Source: Rhodovarius crocodyli (GTDB lineage Bacteria; Pseudomonadota; Alphaproteobacteria; Acetobacterales; Acetobacteraceae). From it: a stretch of DNA of 64,000 bases. The stretch lies in contig CAMDJV010000006.1 of the NCBI GenBank assembly GCA_945901085.1, positions 1-64,000 on the forward strand, in the 5' to 3' direction. A program made the translations under genes and the position numbers. Numbering within the stretch: position 1 is the stretch's first letter; each line of letters starts with the position of its first letter. Shown piece after piece: positions 3,189-32,929 of the stretch. The notes beneath the pieces are model-generated. The model was not told the DNA's origin. It searched no databases and saw only the letters and a program-made list of their open reading frames with translations.

Positions 3189-5456
3189 TTGGCGCCCAGG
3201 AAGCACCCCACCCACAGCCCGGCCCCGCAAGCGCCGGAGGGGTTGAACGCGGGTTCTGCCATCCCTGGCCTTGATGCGGCGCTGGCCTTTGTGGCCAGCG
3301 CGGTGGAGGGGGACCCCCGGCTGGATGGCCAGGTACTGGCCGATGCCGCCCGCCTCGCCGCCACCGCCCATGCGGGGCAGGTTCGCCGCAATGGCGAGCC
3401 GTATATTATTCATCCCATTGCCGTGGCCGAGATTTTGGCTGGCTATCGGCTCGATACCGCCACCCTGGCCACCGCCCTGCTGCATGATGTGGTGGAGGAT
3501 ACCCCCACCTCGCTGCCCGACATCAGCCGCCGCTTTGGCGCTGAGGTGGCCAAGCTGGTCGATGGCGTCACCAAACTCAGCCGGATCGAGGTGCAGTCCG
3601 AGCGCACCAAACAGGCGGAAAACCTACGCAAACTGCTCATGGCGGTCAGCGAGGATATTCGCGTCCTGCTCGTCAAGCTGGCCGACCGGCTGCACAATAT
3701 GCGCACGCTGCACCATGTGCCGAAGGTGGAGAAACGGGCGCAGACGGCGCGCGAGACGCTCGATATCTATGCTCCCCTGGCCGAGCGCATCGGCATGGAA
3801 CGGCTGAAGACCGAACTCGAGACCCTGGCCTTTCGGGAACTCAACCCCGAGGCCTGGCGGGGTATTCAGGCCCGGCTGACGTTTTTGCGCGGCCAAAGCG
3901 CCGATTTGATCAGCGAGATCGAGCACGACATTGTCGAGGTGCTGGGCCGCCACGGCGTCGCTGTCGAGGAGGTGCTGGGGCGAGAAAAATCGCCCTATTC
4001 GATCTGGCGCAAGATGGAGGCGAAGAATGTCGCCTTTGAAGCCCTCTCCGATGTGATGGCGTTTCGCGTCATCCTGCCCCAGAAGGCGCAATGCTATATG
4101 GCGCTGGGGGCAGTGCATGACGCCTATCGCACCATTCCCGGCCGCTTCAAGGATTATATCTCCACCCCCAAGGCCAATGGCTATCAGAGCCTGCACACCG
4201 GGGTGACGGTGCCGGCCAAGCGCCATGCCAAAATTGAATTGCAAATCCGCACCCGCGCGATGCATGAAGTTGCCGAATACGGCGTTGCCGCGCATTGGGT
4301 CTATAAGCAGGGCGAAACGCAGGAGACGCGCCGCTACCCCTGGATGAAGGCGCTGCTCGAGATTATCGAGACCGCCTCCGAGCCGCAGGATGTGCTGGAG
4401 AACACCAAGCTCCAACTGCATAGCGAGAGTGTCTTTGTCTTCACGCCCAAGGGCGAATTGTTCGAATTGCCGCGCGGCGCCACGCCGATTGACTTTGCCT
4501 ATATGGTGCATTCCCAGGTGGGCGATACCTGCGTGGGCGCCAAGGTGAATGGCAAGGTGATGCCGCTGCGCCAGCACCTCTCCAATGGCGACCAGGTGGA
4601 GGTCATCACCGCCCGCGGCGGCAAGCCCAACCCGGATTGGCTGAAATTCGTTGCCACCGGCCGGGCAAGGGCGCGGATTCGGCGTTTTGCCCAGGCGGCC
4701 GAGCGTGAGACCCACCGCCAGGAAGGCCGCGCGGCGGTGGCCAAGGCCTTTCGGCAGGATGGGCTGGATTTTTCCGAAAAACTGCTCGAGCCGGCGCTGA
4801 AGACGCTGAAACAGGCCAGCACCGAGGAGCTTTTCGTTGCGGTGGGCAGCGGCGCGCTGGGCCCGCGCGAGGTGCTCTTCGCCGCCGTGCCGGAACTGCG
4901 CGCGCCGGCCCGTGCGGTGGAGCCGATGATGCTCAGCCGCCCGCGCGGCAGGCTGGGCGGCGGGCCGCTGGTGACAGCACGCGCCGAAGGCCGCAGCGAG
5001 CCGGCTGCCGAAGGCCCCATGGCCATCACCGGCCTGCCGCCTGGCACGCCAGTGCAATATGCTGGCTGCTGCAACCCGGTGCCGGGCGATGCCATTCTGG
5101 GGATCATCAATACCGGCCGGGCCATCACCATCCATCGGCGGGATTGCCACACGCTGGAGAGTTTTTCCGCCACCCCCGAGCGCTTCTTCGAGGTGGGCTG
5201 GGAGGCCCAGCAGAGTGGCGCGCATACCGCCAAATTATCGCTCTGCGCAGCCAATGAGCCCAATGTGCTCTCAGGCATCACCAATGCCATCGCCAAGCAG
5301 GATGGTGCCATTGCCTCACTGCGGGTGACCCGGCGGCAGGATGAATGTGATGTGGCGCTGGAGGCGGAGGTGCGCGATTTGCGGCACTTGGCCAATATCA
5401 TGGCCGGGCTGCGCGCCTGCCCCGGGGTGATACGGGTGGATCGGGCGCGGAGTTAG
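3189..5456 (+). CDS. rsh: Bifunctional (p)ppGpp synthetase/hydrolase (Rsh)
   Basis: A 755-residue long RelA/SpoT homologue that makes and degrades the stringent-response alarmone. Domain order: HD hydrolase from about residue 55, with HAGQVRRNGEPYIIHP and the catalytic LHDVVEDT near residue 98; synthetase with FKDYISTPKANGYQSLHT near 320 and LQIRTRAMHE; TGS domain from about 414 (VFVFTPKGELFELPRG); a Cys-rich zinc-finger-like segment YAGCCNPVPGD with DCHTL; and a C-terminal ACT domain. Both catalytic centres look intact, so it should be bifunctional, as expected for a single-Rsh alphaproteobacterium. The start is TTG at 3189 with no good alternative nearby. It is co-transcribed with rpoZ. A strong hairpin lies about 30 bases after the stop. 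Confidence 0.96.
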   Translation: MAPRKHPTHSPAPQAPEGLNAGSAIPGLDAALAFVASAVEGDPRLDGQVLADAARLAATAHAGQVRRNGEPYIIHPIAVAEILAGYRLDTATLATALLHDVVEDTPTSLPDISRRFGAEVAKLVDGVTKLSRIEVQSERTKQAENLRKLLMAVSEDIRVLLVKLADRLHNMRTLHHVPKVEKRAQTARETLDIYAPLAERIGMERLKTELETLAFRELNPEAWRGIQARLTFLRGQSADLISEIEHDIVEVLGRHGVAVEEVLGREKSPYSIWRKMEAKNVAFEALSDVMAFRVILPQKAQCYMALGAVHDAYRTIPGRFKDYISTPKANGYQSLHTGVTVPAKRHAKIELQIRTRAMHEVAEYGVAAHWVYKQGETQETRRYPWMKALLEIIETASEPQDVLENTKLQLHSESVFVFTPKGELFELPRGATPIDFAYMVHSQVGDTCVGAKVNGKVMPLRQHLSNGDQVEVITARGGKPNPDWLKFVATGRARARIRRFAQAAERETHRQEGRAAVAKAFRQDGLDFSEKLLEPALKTLKQASTEELFVAVGSGALGPREVLFAAVPELRAPARAVEPMMLSRPRGRLGGGPLVTARAEGRSEPAAEGPMAITGLPPGTPVQYAGCCNPVPGDAILGIINTGRAITIHRRDCHTLESFSATPERFFEVGWEAQQSGAHTAKLSLCAANEPNVLSGITNAIAKQDGAIASLRVTRRQDECDVALEAEVRDLRHLANIMAGLRACPGVIRVDRARS

Positions 5457-5473: not shown

Positions 5474-5511
5474 CCTGCTGGGGTGCTCGAGGGGCAAAGC
5501 CCCTCGATCTT
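5474..5511 (+). terminator. Rho-independent-type hairpin after rsh; 38-bp repeat copy 1
   Basis: A perfect 9-bp stem TCGAGGGGC / GCCCCTCGA (5487-5495 with 5499-5507) with an AAA loop, followed by a short T run (5508-5513 region). It lies 30 bases after the rsh stop. The whole 38-base stretch 5474-5511 recurs identically at 16593-16630, so it is both a terminator and a dispersed repeat. Confidence 0.75.
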
Positions 5512-5519
5512 TTCCCCCC

Positions 5520-5625
5520 TAGAGCCTGTTCCGTTCGCCTCGGCTCACTGCAAAGGCTCTAGGCTTTTGTTTGCCGAGCATCTTTATCCGTTCAAACGAT
5601 TCCGTTTGAACGGATGATGCTCTAG
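5520..5625 (+). repeat. Composite palindromic intergenic repeat, copy A
   Basis: About 105 bases made of two hairpin modules. Module 1: AGAGCCTGTTCCGTTCGCC with an imperfect return to GGCTCT at 5555-5560. Module 2: ATCCGTTCAAACGATTCCG / TTTGAACGGAT, an inverted repeat of ATCCGTTCAAACG with CGTTTGAACGGAT (5586-5598 with 5603-5615), flanked by GAGCAT and ATGCTC. Related copies lie at 11454-11556 (same orientation) and at 16669-16747 and 31401-31502 (opposite). All are intergenic. No protein is encoded; the role (mRNA 3' stabiliser, terminator, or REP/MITE-like mobile unit) is unknown. Confidence 0.8.
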
Positions 5626-5647
5626 CTATCCATTTTCCAGCCGCCTC

Positions 5648-5974
5648 TCAGTTGAGAAACGGATTGCGCCCGCGCGCCGGCGCCTGTGCCGGGCCGAAAT
5701 GCTGCGCCAAGTAATTCACCACCAGGGCGCGATCAGCACCTTCGAGCGGGGTCATGCCGTGGCGCTCGGCCATCCAGTCCATCAGCCCATCCCATTGCGC
5801 GTGGGAGAGGCGAGAGCGGCGGATCAGGGCGCTGCTGTGGCAGGCGGTGCAACCATAGAACACCTCATCGCGGCCTTCGCCATCGGGCAGCACGGTGGGT
5901 TCTTCGGCGGTGGCGGTCGGCTGGGCCATGGCCCAGCCGGCGCATAGGCTCAGCGCCAGAAGCAGGCGGCGCAT
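5648..5974 (-). CDS. Monohaem cytochrome c, SorB-like subunit of sulfite dehydrogenase
   Basis: A 108-residue protein with an N-terminal signal peptide (MRRLLLALSLCAGWAMA) and one c-type haem site, GCTACHSS (CxxCH). The sequence RRSRLSHAQWDGLMDWMAERHGM, followed by a C-terminal helix with VVNYLAQHFG, is the pattern of the small cytochrome subunits that accept electrons from periplasmic sulfite dehydrogenases. The likely axial ligand is Met in the MAERHGM segment. Its ATG overlaps the stop of the upstream molybdoenzyme gene by one base, so the two are translationally coupled and probably form one complex. The subunit assignment is by pairing and family resemblance. Confidence 0.88.
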   Translation of the reverse strand: MRRLLLALSLCAGWAMAQPTATAEEPTVLPDGEGRDEVFYGCTACHSSALIRRSRLSHAQWDGLMDWMAERHGMTPLEGADRALVVNYLAQHFGPAQAPARGRNPFLN

Positions 5975-11420: not shown

Positions 11421-11453
11421 GGGGCGGGGCGGATGGTCGAGCGGCGCGGCTTG

Positions 11454-11556
11454 AGAGCCTGTTCCGTTCATTAAGGCCCACTGAAAGGGCTCTAATGCTC
11501 TGTTTTTAGTGTTTTAATCCACTCAAACGAGGCCGTTTGAACGGATGAAGCGCTAG
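11454..11556 (+). repeat. Composite palindromic intergenic repeat, copy B
   Basis: Same two-module layout and orientation as the copy at 5520-5625: AGAGCCTGTTCCGTTCA...GGGCTCT, then a spacer ending TTTTAATCC, then CTCAAACGAGGCCGTTTGA with ACGGAT. The second hairpin pairs TCAAACG (11523-11529) with CGTTTGA (11534-11540). The right end runs into the stop codon of the cytochrome b gene (CTA at 11553-11555 on this strand). Confidence 0.75.
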
Positions 11557-12107
11557 CCGCGCGGGTAACGAAACGGACCGCTGCGCGGCAGCATGCGCAG
11601 CAAGCCGCCATCCTGCAGCACGATGTTATGGAACACCGCCGCCGCCGCATGCAGGCCAACGAGTGCGAGCAGGGCATGCGCGCCGAATTCGTGCAGCCCC
11701 TCCATTTGCTCACCAAGGCCGCGATTGGCCGAAAAGGGGGAGGGCAGGGTGAAGAGGCCAAGCACCATCACCACGCGCCCCTTCAGCCACATCATGCCCA
11801 GGCCGAGCAGCGGCACCGCCAGCATGGCGGCGTAAAGCCCCCAATGGGCGAGCCTGGCCAGGCGCTGGATCATCGGGTTGCCCTCCAGCCGTGGCAGGCC
11901 GGGAATGATCAGCCGCCACAATGCCAGCAGCAGCGTGAGCGCAAGGCCCAGCAGGCCGAGTGAGGCATGCAGCATGGTGACAAGGTTGCGCGGCGCGCCG
12001 CGGGGGAACTCCTCCATCACCAGCCCCAGCGCATAGCTGCTGAAGATGCCCAGCGCGATCAGCCAATGCAGCGCTTGGATGATGGCGGAATGGCGTTGTG
12101 CGATCAT
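11553..12107 (-). CDS. Cytochrome b561 family protein
   Basis: A 184-residue integral membrane dihaem cytochrome of the bacterial CybB type. Four transmembrane segments are visible, each with histidines in the expected places: HSAIIQALHWLIALGI, VTMLHASLGLLGLALTL with LWRLI, LARLAHWGLYAAMLAVPLLG, and LHEFGAHALLALVGLHAAAAVFHN. It would pass electrons between quinol and periplasmic or membrane acceptors (in E. coli CybB, superoxide). The last codon and stop lie within a composite repeat, so the C-terminus (RSGPFRYPRG) may have been altered by the repeat. The electron partner is unknown. Confidence 0.9.
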   Translation of the reverse strand: MIAQRHSAIIQALHWLIALGIFSSYALGLVMEEFPRGAPRNLVTMLHASLGLLGLALTLLLALWRLIIPGLPRLEGNPMIQRLARLAHWGLYAAMLAVPLLGLGMMWLKGRVVMVLGLFTLPSPFSANRGLGEQMEGLHEFGAHALLALVGLHAAAAVFHNIVLQDGGLLRMLPRSGPFRYPRG

Positions 12108-15446: not shown

Positions 15447-16333
15447 GGCTTGCTCTTTGCCTGTTATTGGCGCTTGCCGGCTGCACGATGGGCCCGCCCA
15501 TCCAGCCCGAGCCGCGCTATGAGGTCGGCCAGCCCTATCAGATGGGTGGCTTTTGGTCCTACCCGCGTGAGGCGTTTTCCCTGGTGGAAAGCGGCTTGGG
15601 GGTGGTGGTGGAGGCCGCAGGCCCCCGCCGCACCGGCAATGGCGAGGTATGGGAGGCTTCTGCCATGCTGGCCACCCATCGCAGCCTGCAATTGCCGGCC
15701 ATTATCACCCTGACCAATTTGGAAAATGGCCGCGCACTGAGCCTGCGGGTCAATGATCGCGGGCCGGAGCAGGCCGGGCGCATGGTTGGTGTCTCCCGCC
15801 GCGCCGGCGAATTGCTGGGGGTGGCACCAGGGGCGGTTTTTCAGGCCCGGCTTGAGGTGCAGGCCGAACCCTCGCGCGCATTGGCTGAAGGGCTTTCGGG
15901 CGGGGCGGCCAGCAATAGCCCGGCGCTGGTGATGAATGCGGCGCCGGTGGGCCGGGTGGAGCGTGAGAGCCTGGCACCGCCCGAAGGGGCCAGGGCGGGG
16001 GCGGTGCGCGCTACCCCCGGCCGCGCCGCTTTGGCCGAGGTCACGCAAGCCAATACTGTGAGCCTGCCGCCGCTGCTCCTGGCTGAGGAATTGCGCCAGG
16101 GGCTGGCCATGCCCGGGCGGCTGTTTCTCGATGCCGGCAGCTATTTCACCTATGCGCTGGCGCAGCGCCAAGCGGGGCGGATCGGGGCGCGGGCCGAGCC
16201 GGTGGGGCCACGCTCCCGCCAGCAGGAATTTCGCGTCCGCGCGGGGCCTTTTGTGAGCGTGGCAGAGGCGGATGCGGCGCTGCAGCGCGCCCGCGCCGCA
16301 GGGTTCCCCGAATTGCGGATCGTGGTTGAATAG
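15443..16333 (+). CDS. rlpA: RlpA-family septal ring lipoprotein
   Basis: A 296-residue lipoprotein: the lipobox LALAGC at residues 9-14 predicts membrane anchoring after Cys14. A double-psi beta-barrel domain (about 60-140) contains TLTNLENGRALSLRVNDRGP, the hallmark with catalytic Asp of RlpA transglycosylases acting on naked glycans. A low-complexity linker follows, then a C-terminal SPOR domain (about 225-296: AGSYFTYALAQRQAGRIG, VRAGPFVSVAEAD) that targets septal denuded peptidoglycan. It overlaps the MltB gene by four bases. In related alphaproteobacteria rlpA is usually followed directly by the D-Ala-D-Ala carboxypeptidase; here 454 bp of repeats intervene. Confidence 0.9.
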   Translation: MRLALCLLLALAGCTMGPPIQPEPRYEVGQPYQMGGFWSYPREAFSLVESGLGVVVEAAGPRRTGNGEVWEASAMLATHRSLQLPAIITLTNLENGRALSLRVNDRGPEQAGRMVGVSRRAGELLGVAPGAVFQARLEVQAEPSRALAEGLSGGAASNSPALVMNAAPVGRVERESLAPPEGARAGAVRATPGRAALAEVTQANTVSLPPLLLAEELRQGLAMPGRLFLDAGSYFTYALAQRQAGRIGARAEPVGPRSRQQEFRVRAGPFVSVAEADAALQRARAAGFPELRIVVE

Positions 16334-16358
16334 CCGGCGTTAGTAGGCGGCTGAAAAA

Positions 16359-16419
16359 CCCTGGTGGCGGTGTAAAAAAGAGCGAAAGGGCTTTGCCCTC
16401 TCGCGCTCTCCCACCAGGG
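16359..16419. terminator. Long two-part hairpin after rlpA
   Basis: An outer stem CCCTGGTGG (16359-16367) pairs exactly with CCACCAGGG (16411-16419). An inner imperfect stem, GAGCG and GGGC with GCCC and CGCTC, has a TTT loop at 16392-16394. It begins 26 bases after the rlpA stop. It probably ends the transglycosylase-rlpA transcript. It resembles the GC-rich hairpin repeats common in Acetobacteraceae intergenic DNA. Confidence 0.6.
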
Positions 16420-16440
16420 TCGACCTGTATGTCGACGATT

Positions 16441-16580
16441 TTCCTGGACCTTTGATTAATTTTTTCTCTTAAAATTGAAGTATTTTTCTTCATATAAATT
16501 GAGTTTTATTTTTTATAATAAAATTAAACAATCATATTGAATATATTATAATTAAAGCTACAAATTAAACGAAGGTGCAG
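16441..16580. other. Strongly AT-rich island between rlpA and dac gene
   Basis: About 130 bases with long A/T runs (for example TTAATTTTTT, GTTTTATTTTTTATAATAAA, ATATTATAATTAAA) in a genome that is otherwise very GC-rich. No open frame of note. It is bracketed by the hairpin at 16359-16419 and the 38-bp repeat at 16593-16630. The base composition is foreign to the window. It could be a remnant of inserted DNA, a nucleoid-protein binding site, or a strong promoter/UP-element region for the downstream genes. Confidence 0.7.
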
Positions 16581-16592
16581 GAAACTAAGTTT

Positions 16593-16630
16593 CCTGCTGG
16601 GGTGCTCGAGGGGCAAAGCCCCTCGATCTT
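16593..16630 (+). repeat. 38-bp hairpin repeat, copy 2
   Basis: Identical over 38 bases to 5474-5511, including the 9-bp stem TCGAGGGGC / GCCCCTCGA with AAA loop (16606-16626). Here it does not directly follow a gene but an AT-rich island, so it is a dispersed element as well as a potential terminator. Confidence 0.8.
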
Positions 16631-16668
16631 ATTTAAGCTCGCTATTCGTTAATCCGATCAGATAAAAT

Positions 16669-16747
16669 GTTTCGAGCGGATAAAGATACCCACCATACAA
16701 AAGCCAAGAGCCTGTGCAGTGAGCCGAGGTGAAGGGAACAGGCTCTA
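16669..16747 (-). repeat. Composite palindromic intergenic repeat, copy C (degenerate)
   Basis: Reverse orientation to copies A and B. Well conserved in CGGATAAAGAT, ACAAAAGCC, AGAGCCTGTGCAGTGAGCC and GGGAACAGGCTCT; the CAAACG/CGTTTG hairpin arm at the left end has decayed. It ends 40 bases before the carboxypeptidase start, so it forms part of that gene's 5' region. Confidence 0.7.
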
Positions 16748-16787
16748 ATCGGCTTGAGCGGCAACCGCCACGAGCGTAAGCCAAGCC

Positions 16788-18014
16788 ATGGTCAAGCATC
16801 CCGAATCCCGCCGCGCCCTTCTTGCCGCTCCGGCATTGCTGCTGGCGCCCCCCGTGCAGGCCCAGCCGCAGCGCCCCAACCCAGGCGCCGCCCGCCCGGC
16901 CAATCGCCCGCAGCAGCGCCCGCCGGGTTCGCCCGCCTCCAGCCCGCTGGGGCCCATCGATACCGCCGCGCGCCAGGCCATTATTACTGATTTTGAGACA
17001 GGTGCGGTGCTGTTGGAAAAGGCGGCGGATGAGCGCATGCCGCCCTCTTCGATGTCCAAGCTGATGACCATGTATATGGTGTTCGATCAGTTGAAGCAGG
17101 GCCGGCTGCGCCTCGATCAGACCTTCACCGTCAGCGAGGCCGCCTGGCGGATGGGCGGCAGCCGGATGTTTCTCGAACTCGGCTCCCAGGTGCCGCTGGA
17201 GGCGCTCTGCCGCGGGGTGATCATCCAATCCGGCAATGATGCCTGCATCGTGCTGGCCGAGGGTATTGCCGGCAGCGAGCGGCAATTCGCTGAGATGATG
17301 AACCAAAAGGCGCGCGAGATCGGCCTCACCAACTCCAATTTCCGCAACGCCACCGGCTGGCCTGACCCCGAGCACCGGATGACCTGCCGTGACCTGGCCC
17401 ATCTCGCCGGGCGCGTCATTCGTGACTTCCCGGAATATTATCGGTTTTATGGCGAGCGCAATTTCCGCTGGAACAATGTCAGCCAGGAAAACCGCAACCC
17501 GCTGCTGGCCCGGATGAACGGCGCCGATGGCATGAAGACCGGCCATACTGAGGAGGCGGGCTATGGCCTCACCGGCACGGTGAAGCAGGGCGAGCGGCGG
17601 CTCATCATCGTCACCAATGGCCTGCCCAGCATGGCGTCGCGGGCGGAGGAGAATGTCCGCCTGCTGGAATGGGGTTTCGGCAATTTCGAGAATGTCGTGC
17701 TGTTCCGCGCCGCCGATGAGATCGAGCGTGTGCCGGTGCATCTGGGTGCATCGCCCTCCGTGCCGCTGGTGGGCGGGCGCGATGTGGTGGCCACCCTGCC
17801 GCGCAGCTGGCGCCAATCCATGCGGGCGAGGCTGCGCTATGATGCGCCGCTCGAAGCGCCGGTGAGCCGTGGGCAGGAATTGGGCCGGCTGGAGATTTCC
17901 GGCAGCGGCGTGCCGCCGATGGATCTGCCGCTCTATGCCGGCGCTGATGTCGAGCGTCTGGCCCTGTTGCAGCGCATTCCCGCGGTGATGGGGCGGCTGC
18001 TCGGGCGGGGTTGA
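16788..18014 (+). CDS. Serine-type D-alanyl-D-alanine carboxypeptidase (PBP5/6 class)
   Basis: A 408-residue low-molecular-weight penicillin-binding protein that trims the terminal D-Ala from peptidoglycan stem peptides. After the signal peptide (to about PPVQAQ) and a Pro-rich linker come the three active-site motifs: SMSK (about residue 88), SGN (about 147) and KTG (about 249, in DGMKTGHTEEAGYGLTG). A C-terminal PBP5-type beta domain follows (RARLRYDAPLEAPVSRGQELG). ATG 16788 is the only reasonable start. It leads the run tmk-holB-metG-tatD-MBL with short or overlapping junctions. Confidence 0.95.
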   Translation: MVKHPESRRALLAAPALLLAPPVQAQPQRPNPGAARPANRPQQRPPGSPASSPLGPIDTAARQAIITDFETGAVLLEKAADERMPPSSMSKLMTMYMVFDQLKQGRLRLDQTFTVSEAAWRMGGSRMFLELGSQVPLEALCRGVIIQSGNDACIVLAEGIAGSERQFAEMMNQKAREIGLTNSNFRNATGWPDPEHRMTCRDLAHLAGRVIRDFPEYYRFYGERNFRWNNVSQENRNPLLARMNGADGMKTGHTEEAGYGLTGTVKQGERRLIIVTNGLPSMASRAEENVRLLEWGFGNFENVVLFRAADEIERVPVHLGASPSVPLVGGRDVVATLPRSWRQSMRARLRYDAPLEAPVSRGQELGRLEISGSGVPPMDLPLYAGADVERLALLQRIPAVMGRLLGRG

Positions 18015-31379: not shown

Positions 31380-31400
31380 AGCGGCCGCCTTGCGGCGCTG

Positions 31401-31502
31401 AGAGCATCAACCGCTCAAACGGAATCGTTTGGGCGGATAAAGATGTTCGACAAACAAAAGCATAGAGCCTGGGCATGCGGCCGTCCTGCCTGGAACAGGC
31501 GC
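31401..31502 (-). repeat. Composite palindromic intergenic repeat, copy D
   Basis: Reverse orientation to copies A and B: AGAGCATCAACCGCTCAAAC then GGAATCGTTTGGGCGGAT (inverted repeat CGCTCAAACG-type), AAAGATGTTCGACAAACAAAAGC, TAGAGCCT and GGAACAGGC. It lies 22 bases after the nuclease-like gene and 116 bases before gltA. Compensatory changes in both arms (CCGCTCAAAC with GTTTGGGCGG) preserve most of the pairing. Confidence 0.78.
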
Positions 31503-31618
31503 CAAGTTTTGCGTCTTTGCCCAGGCCAGCGCCATGGACATCGGCAAGGGCTGGATTAAGCTGCGACGCAACATGAACACGCCCCGGGCAACCGGGCCGA
31601 CTGAGGATCGCAGCGACG
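31503..31618 (+). promoter_or_regulatory. gltA leader region
   Basis: 116 bases before gltA. A small hairpin CCCGG-GCAA-CCGGG (31583-31596) with a GNRA-type loop lies 22 bases before the start codon and could affect translation. GAGG at 31603-31606 is a weak ribosome site. An ATG frame at 31534 runs into gltA out of frame and does not look like a gene. Confidence 0.35.
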
Positions 31619-32929
31619 ATGACAATCCTGAGCAAGACCGGCACCGTGACGGTGACCCTGGATGGCAGCAACAAAAGTGCCTCCCTGCCGCTGCTGGAGG
31701 GCACGCTTGGTACGCCGGTCGCCGATATCCGCAAACTTTACAATGATCTGGGCATCTTCACCTTCGATCCCGGCTATGGCGAGACGGCGAGTTGCGACAG
31801 CAAGATCACCTATATCGATGGCGATGCCGGCGTGCTGCTCTATCGCGGCTACCCCATCGAGCAATTGGCCGAGCACAGCGACTTCGTCGAGGTTTGCTAC
31901 CTGCTGATGTATGGCAATTTGCCGAACGCCGCCGAATTGGCCGAGTTCAAGAAGGGTGTGACCTATCACACCATGGTACATGAGCAGATTCGCCAATTCT
32001 TCAATGGCTTCCGCCGTGATGCCCACCCGATGGCGATCATGTGCGGCGTGGTCGGCGCGCTGGCCGCCTTCTATCATGACAATATCAACATGACCGATCC
32101 GCGCCAGCGCGAGATTGCCGCCTTCCGCCTGATCGCGAAGGTGCCGACCATCGCCGCCATGGCCTATAAATATGCCCTCGGCCAGCCCTTCGTGTATCCG
32201 CGCAACGACCTCAGCTACGCTGCCAATTTCCTGCATATGCTCAATTCCGTCCCGGCAGAGCCCTATGTGGTGAGCCCGGTGCTGGAAAAGGCGATGGACC
32301 GCATCCTGGTCCTGCATGCCGATCATGAGCAGAACGCCTCGACCTCGACGGTGCGCCTGGCCGGCTCCACCGGCGCCAATCCCTTTGCCTGCATCGCGGC
32401 CGGCATCGCGGCGCTGTGGGGCCCCGCGCATGGCGGCGCCAATGAGGCGGTGCTGAAGATGCTGGCCGATATCGGCACGCCGGACAAAATTCCGCAATTC
32501 ATCGCCGAGGTGAAGGACAAGAACAGCCACACCAAGCTCATGGGCTTTGGCCACCGCGTCTATAAGAATTTCGACCCGCGCGCCAAAATCATGAAAGAAA
32601 GCTGCCACGAGGTGCTGGCCGAACTTGGCGTCAAAAACGAGCCGCTGCTCGATATGGCGATGGAGATGGAGCGGATTGCGCTGACGGATGATTATTTCGT
32701 CTCGCGCAAGCTCTACCCCAATGTGGATTTCTATTCGGGCATTATTCTGAAGGCGATGGGTATTCCCACCTCGATGTTCACGGTGATCTTTGCCGTGGCG
32801 CGCACCATTGGCTGGGTCAGCCAGTGGAAGGAACTGGTGGAAGACCCCAGCCAGCGCATCGGCCGCCCGCGGCAGATCTATACCGGTGCCCCGGCACGGG
32901 ATTATCAGCCCATCTCCAATCGCGGCTGA
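31619..32929 (+). CDS. gltA: Citrate synthase
   Basis: A 436-residue type II (hexameric, Gram-negative) citrate synthase condensing oxaloacetate and acetyl-CoA at entry to the TCA cycle. N-terminal small beta domain, then [36 protein letters not shown], and the catalytic His in [12 protein letters not shown] (about 270) and [15 protein letters not shown] (about 309), with Asp in [14 protein letters not shown]. All active-site residues are present. It is monocistronic: a repeat lies upstream and a strong hairpin downstream. Confidence 0.98.

Follow-up and report, generated by a model that had tools for sequence, protein, structure and literature searches.

The window analysed here, a stretch of 64 kb of Rhodovarius crocodyli DNA, carries four copies of a dispersed repeat of about 106 bp. 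The search for copies used R1, a covariance model for which 40 copies served as seed, and the flanking genes were named from Pfam:

5519-5626, plus strand: copy A, a complete two-hairpin element (CM score 121.9 bits), with hairpin 1 at about 5519-5562, the T-rich linker at about 5563-5575, hairpin 2 at 5576-5622 and the terminal CTAG at 5622-5625
3243-5456, plus strand, and 5648-5974, minus strand: the convergent neighbours of copy A, a RelA/SpoT gene and a gene without Pfam match, respectively
11452-11557, plus strand: copy B (66.5 bits)
11553-12107, minus strand: cytochrome b561 gene, the TAG stop of which comes from the 3' terminal CTAG of copy B
16641-16748, minus strand: copy C (52.7 bits), hairpin 2 decayed
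15488-16333 and 16836-18014, both plus strand: the flanks of copy C, a lytic-transglycolase-like/SPOR gene and a D-Ala-D-Ala carboxypeptidase gene
31398-31505, minus strand: copy D (79.1 bits), with a decayed hairpin 1 and a largely preserved hairpin 2 that has GATTC in its loop
30846-31379 and 31619-32929, both plus strand: the flanks of copy D, an SNase-domain gene and a citrate synthase gene

The four copies were detected with E values between 2e-22 and 2e-8, and R1 found no fifth copy in the 64-kb window at E 0.1. None of the Rfam families matched the window at gathering score. Hairpin 2 of copy A has GATTC in its loop, and the predicted RNA fold of this copy is stable beyond chance (z of -7.5); the decayed copies C and D reach about -1. 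In the whole assembly (3.85 Mb, 91 contigs, 97% complete) R1 retrieved 51 copies at E<1e-5; a simple BLAST search had already turned up 40. With R1 scores of 52.7 to 121.9 bits in the window and this genome-wide count, the four-copy family put forward in a preliminary description of this DNA is real and does not belong to the repeats with few or no further copies. The limits given there were close overall, except that copy C had been drawn too short. The placement of all copies between genes or at gene 3' ends was borne out as well: all four lie between genes, and only copy B, not A, C or D, abuts a stop codon.

The element consists of two unlike hairpins with a T-rich linker between them, and its genome consensus reads TAGAGCCTGTTCCGTTCGCCTCGGCTCACTGCACAGGCTCTA-AGCTTTTGTTTGTC-GAGCATC-TTT-ATCCGCTCAAACG-ATTC-CGTTTGAACGGAT-GATGCTC-TAG. 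Hairpin 1 is bounded by CTAGAGC at its start and GCTCTAG at its end and is followed by the linker of 12-14 nt (61% T and 5% A over 12 nt). Hairpin 2 is built of 7 bp, an excess of 3 nt on the 5' side only, 13 bp and a loop of 4 nt, usually with GATTC, and the element ends with CTAG. The 3-nt excess occurs in most lineages independently of the sequence (GAGCATC-TTT-ATCCG, GAGCAAC-TTT-ATCCG, GAGCAAA-TTA-CTCCG); in some lineages (GAGCA-TCTTCA-CCCG) it forms part of an internal loop of 6x3. Changes in the 5' tetranucleotide are matched by changes at the end of hairpin 1, on its 3' side, as TTAG/CTAA in copies of the window genome, ATAG/CTAT in G032, CCAG/CTGG in G119 and CTGG/CCAG in G095, while the outer 3' terminus is constantly CTAG. 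A longer form of about 140 bp with extended hairpins was observed in other alphaproteobacterial families (L352, L357, L359, L367 and L371). Partial units exist too, as in genome G143, where a solo fragment of hairpin 2 and linker (L410:7520-7582) adjoins a full copy.

Pairing in the stems was evaluated in a MAFFT alignment of 40 copies from the window genome and others, with shuffled and slid alignments as controls. Pairing cells amounted to 86% in the real alignment versus 78% in the shuffled and 31-36% in the slid ones. Both partners had changed in 23 of the 37 pairs; cells with a double change numbered 120, compared with 43.6 after shuffling and 12-41 after sliding. Stem sequences hence differ between genera and their pairing is retained, to an extent that exceeds every control. 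The preliminary description had derived selection for structure from copy D, in which both arms of the second hairpin appeared to have changed in step. That stem does contain one compensated pair relative to copy A (T-A to C-G), but also one C.A and one T.T mismatch; it is the double changes across the family that uphold the claim, and substitutions that ignore base pairing are not the pattern found. A requirement for pairing in one RNA strand only is expected to leave an excess of G.T among the imperfect pairs. None was seen in 44 non-redundant copies (48 G.T versus 42 A.C), so an RNA strand signal was rejected and a one-strand constraint is disfavoured; the near-equal frequencies indicate that the constraint acts on the DNA or on both strands alike.

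The copies concentrate at gene 3' ends. In the window genome, 28 occupy convergent, 20 tandem and one divergent spacers, besides one antisense copy inside a predicted gene and one with a single neighbour; the element-free spacers of at least 20 bp comprise 6 convergent, 37 tandem and 12 divergent ones (Fisher, 7e-7). Other genomes show the same distribution, with 35 convergent, 40 tandem and 4 divergent spacers against 10, 58 and 19 without the element (p 2e-6). Where a gene 3' end faces the element, its terminal TAG coincides exactly with the stop codon in 12/37 and 17/40 cases in the window genome and in 22/55 and 38/68 cases in the other genomes, and 13 copies supply stops on both sides; the underlying gene calls come from a home-made caller and are approximate, apart from the cases annotated with PGAP. 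The PGAP annotation concurs for a D-aminoacylase gene of Rhodovastum, a tail-fibre gene of S. meliloti, a PAAR gene of S. americanum and a gene of Nitratireductor. The encoded proteins are hardly affected, as the C-termini of close orthologue pairs match to 0-3 residues in nearly all cases. A gene of G119, for instance, ends with DPFAG* by way of the element TAG, and two element-free relatives end with DPFAG* by way of TGA; no congener was obtained among the relatives of G119. Both termini read TAG outward, so that a flush insertion at a coding end keeps the protein intact and provides its stop. Many genes in these bacteria thus stop at a codon from a mobile repeat, which accounts for recurrent odd gene ends.

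Such placement could also be that of a terminator or 3'-UTR hairpin that was spread and kept by selection for an RNA function, its mobility being incidental. The succession of hairpin 1 and a tract with 61% T is consistent with this, as is the strong bias for 3'-3' spacers. Yet in tandem spacers the T tract points with transcription in 25 copies and against it in 35 (p 0.25), and this lack of a preferred orientation does not favour a one-strand terminator role. Together with the absence of a G.T excess over A.C, that is, of a one-strand RNA signal, and with the mobility evident from the empty sites and apparent independent insertions described below, this makes an origin as terminator rather improbable.

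Mobility is shown by empty sites, for which G143 was compared with its congeners G032, G365, G366 and G367 (about 80-92% alike). At L312:10282-10389 a G143 gene ends at the CTAG of the element, and the four congeners all lack the element and have the same CTAG end. The CTAG hence pre-exists in the congeners, and it flanks the element on both sides in G143. At L410:14168-14274, G032 reads ...gtgaac-CTAA-ccgtag; G143 carries the element with CTAG at both ends, and the TAG stop is common to both genomes. At the third site (L410:7583-7690), two convergent genes of G032 have TGA stops 10 bp apart, and in G143 the TAG stops of both genes bound a stretch in which a solo hairpin-2 fragment and a full copy are combined. 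The three empty sites thus show an element that moves, inserts where coding sequences end and provides the stop with or without a prior TAG. For the flush cases L183 and L410:7583-7690, the relatives end in TGA and not in TAG, so that a TAG already in place is not enough to describe the target. Two simple rules were therefore discarded, namely that the target is always a pre-existing TAG, which fails at L183 and L410:7583, and that the CTAG is never derived from the target, since it pre-exists at the L312 empty site. The flush placement could partly be due to later deletion or selection. At one orthologous gene 3' end, G032 (L179) and Neoroseomonas eburnea (L224) carry different subtypes in opposite orientation, each giving the gene its stop; the two are apparently independent insertions. 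No empty sites were obtained within the genus of the window, where the relatives are about 75% alike and their spacers cannot be aligned.

The preliminary description had also likened the repeat to a MITE. In such a case the element would have arisen from an insertion sequence by internal deletion and would be mobilised by the DDE transposase of that insertion sequence through terminal inverted repeats, and CTAG would be the target duplication. The element ends of the window genome are indeed inverted repeats (CTAGAGCCTGTTCCGTTC / CTAGAGCATCATCCGTTC, 14/18 identical), and at L312 the CTAG is present before the insertion and on both sides afterwards. As to CTAG itself being a duplication, the L312 and L410 empty sites are ambiguous, and the flanks of 124 copies contained no target duplication at 2-12 bp outside the CTAG. 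Moreover, the terminal tetranucleotides are often unlike, the 5' one covarying with hairpin 1 instead of the 3' end. In a pattern scan of the 97% complete window genome, no transposase flanked by element-like ends was found, and the stray matches inspected are other small repeats. With neither a duplication in these flanks nor a parent element with the same ends in this genome, the MITE-like reading was not supported, and we regard a MITE origin as unlikely. Three of the matches, C3:24284, C13:7319 and C54:161, were considered as ends of a parent insertion sequence and rejected, as they look like another hairpin repeat. These loci of G000 (L373, L374 and L375) appear to represent a sister hairpin repeat with a similar end (CTAGAGCATGATG) and a different body (GTTGAGGCGGAATCGCC).

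Y1 transposases move GTAG REPs and the IS200/IS605 elements. The Y1 transposase domain PF01797 was absent from 23 of the 26 copy-rich family genomes, the window genome included, whereas control genomes were positive. In most carriers the mobiliser is not a resident RAYT-type Y1 transposase, and in this the element differs from GTAG REPs with RAYT. The resemblance to REP/BIME sequences noticed in the preliminary description is supported by the pairing constraint, the placement in intergenic regions and at 3' ends and the bias for convergent genes. We consider it fairly probable that the repeat belongs to the small, non-autonomous mobile elements of REP/BIME type, has TAG ends that are harmless at stops and serves both strands as a hairpin at transcript 3' ends. 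That it amplifies and inserts at or beside stop codons is evident from the lineage-specific subfamilies, the number of copies and the three empty sites. For mobilisation, the hairpins may be recognised as folded single-stranded DNA, which would account for pairing that is kept with no bias to one RNA strand, and also for the missing target duplication. The outward TAG at both ends would render insertions at stop codons tolerable, and resident hairpins may serve, on either strand, to terminate or stabilise transcripts that come from convergent genes.

The element is widespread in the Acetobacteraceae, where R1 detected it in 80 of the 120 genomes sampled, and by genus in 67 of 102, many carriers having at least about 30 copies. 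Copy numbers per genome in the family and class surveys are lower bounds, with at most 32 and 16 hits, respectively, counted for each genome. Carriers by genome were Roseomonas, Neoroseomonas, Pseudoroseomonas, Roseococcus, Plastoroseomonas, Gluconobacter, Nguyenibacter, Brytella, Asaia and Acetobacteraceae MAGs; plasmid-borne copies occur in Rhodovastum, Komagataeibacter and Acidiphilium. In the wider Alphaproteobacteria, 16 of 203 sampled genera gave matches at E<1e-5, some with more than 10 copies, which have the architecture in common and score lower. A copy of Sinorhizobium sojae matched R1 over the full length with 53.7 bits. BLAST searches with this copy led to S. meliloti, S. fredii, S. 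terangae, S. americanum, Rhizobium, Martelella, Nitratireductor and others, including plasmids, and the Sinorhizobium copies include locations on megaplasmids. Plasmid searches with the class-wide variants L348, L350 and L368 gave no match.

Among known repeats, the GTAG REPs and BIMEs are also palindromic and dispersed; most occupy convergent or tandem spacers close to a 3' end, their GTAG termini often provide TAG stops, they form head-to-head dimers with the tags outward and they are insertion targets of IS elements (PMC3733652). In contrast to these, the repeat described here is a fixed unit of about 106 bp with two unlike hairpins, and its terminus is CTAG instead of GTAG and paired at the 5' end, the tetranucleotide of GTAG REPs being unpaired. 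CGTC REPs have no transposase dedicated to them and do not occur in Acetobacteraceae (PMC3733652); the copies aligned here have no CGTC terminus. Br-REP1 and Br-REP2 of Bradyrhizobium are 3'-UTR stem-loops, and Br-REP1, originally noticed between convergent genes, is transcribed on both strands (PMC5082802). They share the stem-loop type and the convergent setting with our repeat, but the consensus (CCGGAATCTCGAGATTCCGG) is unrelated. In genome G090 (L131-L150), the CTAG boundary of 10 of 21 copies coincides exactly with an apparent IS end (ccaatccgacacgctg / cagcgtgtcggattgg), so that the repeat ends seem to be the target of an IS there.

The loop of hairpin 2 contains GANTC, the site of the methyltransferase CcrM, in 103 of 155 copies, and the repeat could accordingly have been kept as a DNA methylation landmark. 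The motif was counted in 25/30 copies of the window genome, 59/94 of the family and 19/31 others, against a background of 0.77 per kb in the window. As the motif is absent from about a third of the copies and reads GATTC in 91 of the 103 cases, inheritance of the loop sequence explains most of this frequency, and a landmark function seems very unlikely. The CIR repeat of Caulobacter is reportedly longer than 100 bp, with GANTC central in one inverted repeat. Similar to our repeat, CIR are long, strictly intergenic alphaproteobacterial repeats tied to CcrM sites, a likeness of description and not of sequence; the missing GANTC in about a third of the copies here is a difference. CIR repeats are named for Caulobacter and other Alphaproteobacteria (Chen and Shapiro 2003, mentioned in PMC10969869). 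RIME and related palindromes are known from Sinorhizobium and Rhizobium (Osteras 1995, as cited in PMC2573895 and PMC2873474). RIME is likewise an alphaproteobacterial intergenic mosaic of palindromes, and an element with the architecture of our repeat occurs in Sinorhizobium; this comparison concerns architecture and not the RIME1 and RIME2 sequences.

By architecture and description, rather than by the RIME and CIR sequences, the repeat is probably the Acetobacteraceae branch of one alphaproteobacterial superfamily with RIME and CIR. A bolder version, which we put forward tentatively and hold to be possible rather than probable, is a class-wide superfamily of CTAG-ended two-hairpin elements comprising all three, moved by a host- or phage-encoded activity other than RAYT/Y1 that would insert folded single strands at stop codons, where their own TAG ends would restore the stop. 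No published description of the element in Acetobacteraceae was found, in line with the suggestion that the family may be undescribed for the genus; given an architecture that is class-wide and overlaps with RIME and probably CIR, the novelty is nonetheless not one of the genus. The Acetobacteraceae (acetic acid bacteria, Roseomonas and relatives), which the REP catalogue mentions only as lacking CGTC repeats (PMC3733652), thereby gain a defined repeat family with structural covariation, along with a covariance model that works for its detection. The family ties scattered alphaproteobacterial repeats into one architecture and makes a standing question testable, the spread of REP-like sequences in lineages without RAYT.

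Other repeats were noticed as well. A second mosaic repeat in the window (16339-16650 and about 5478-5519) is composed of a CGAGGGGC..GCCCCTCG hairpin, an AT-rich stretch and GCTGGGGTGCTCGAG; many partial copies are found in the genome (C8, C32, C28, C19, C11, C5, C14, C38 and C1), often adjoining the 106-bp element. Another abundant repeat of about 150 bp, with dozens of copies in genus g25, is located in G143 at L312:8404-8560.
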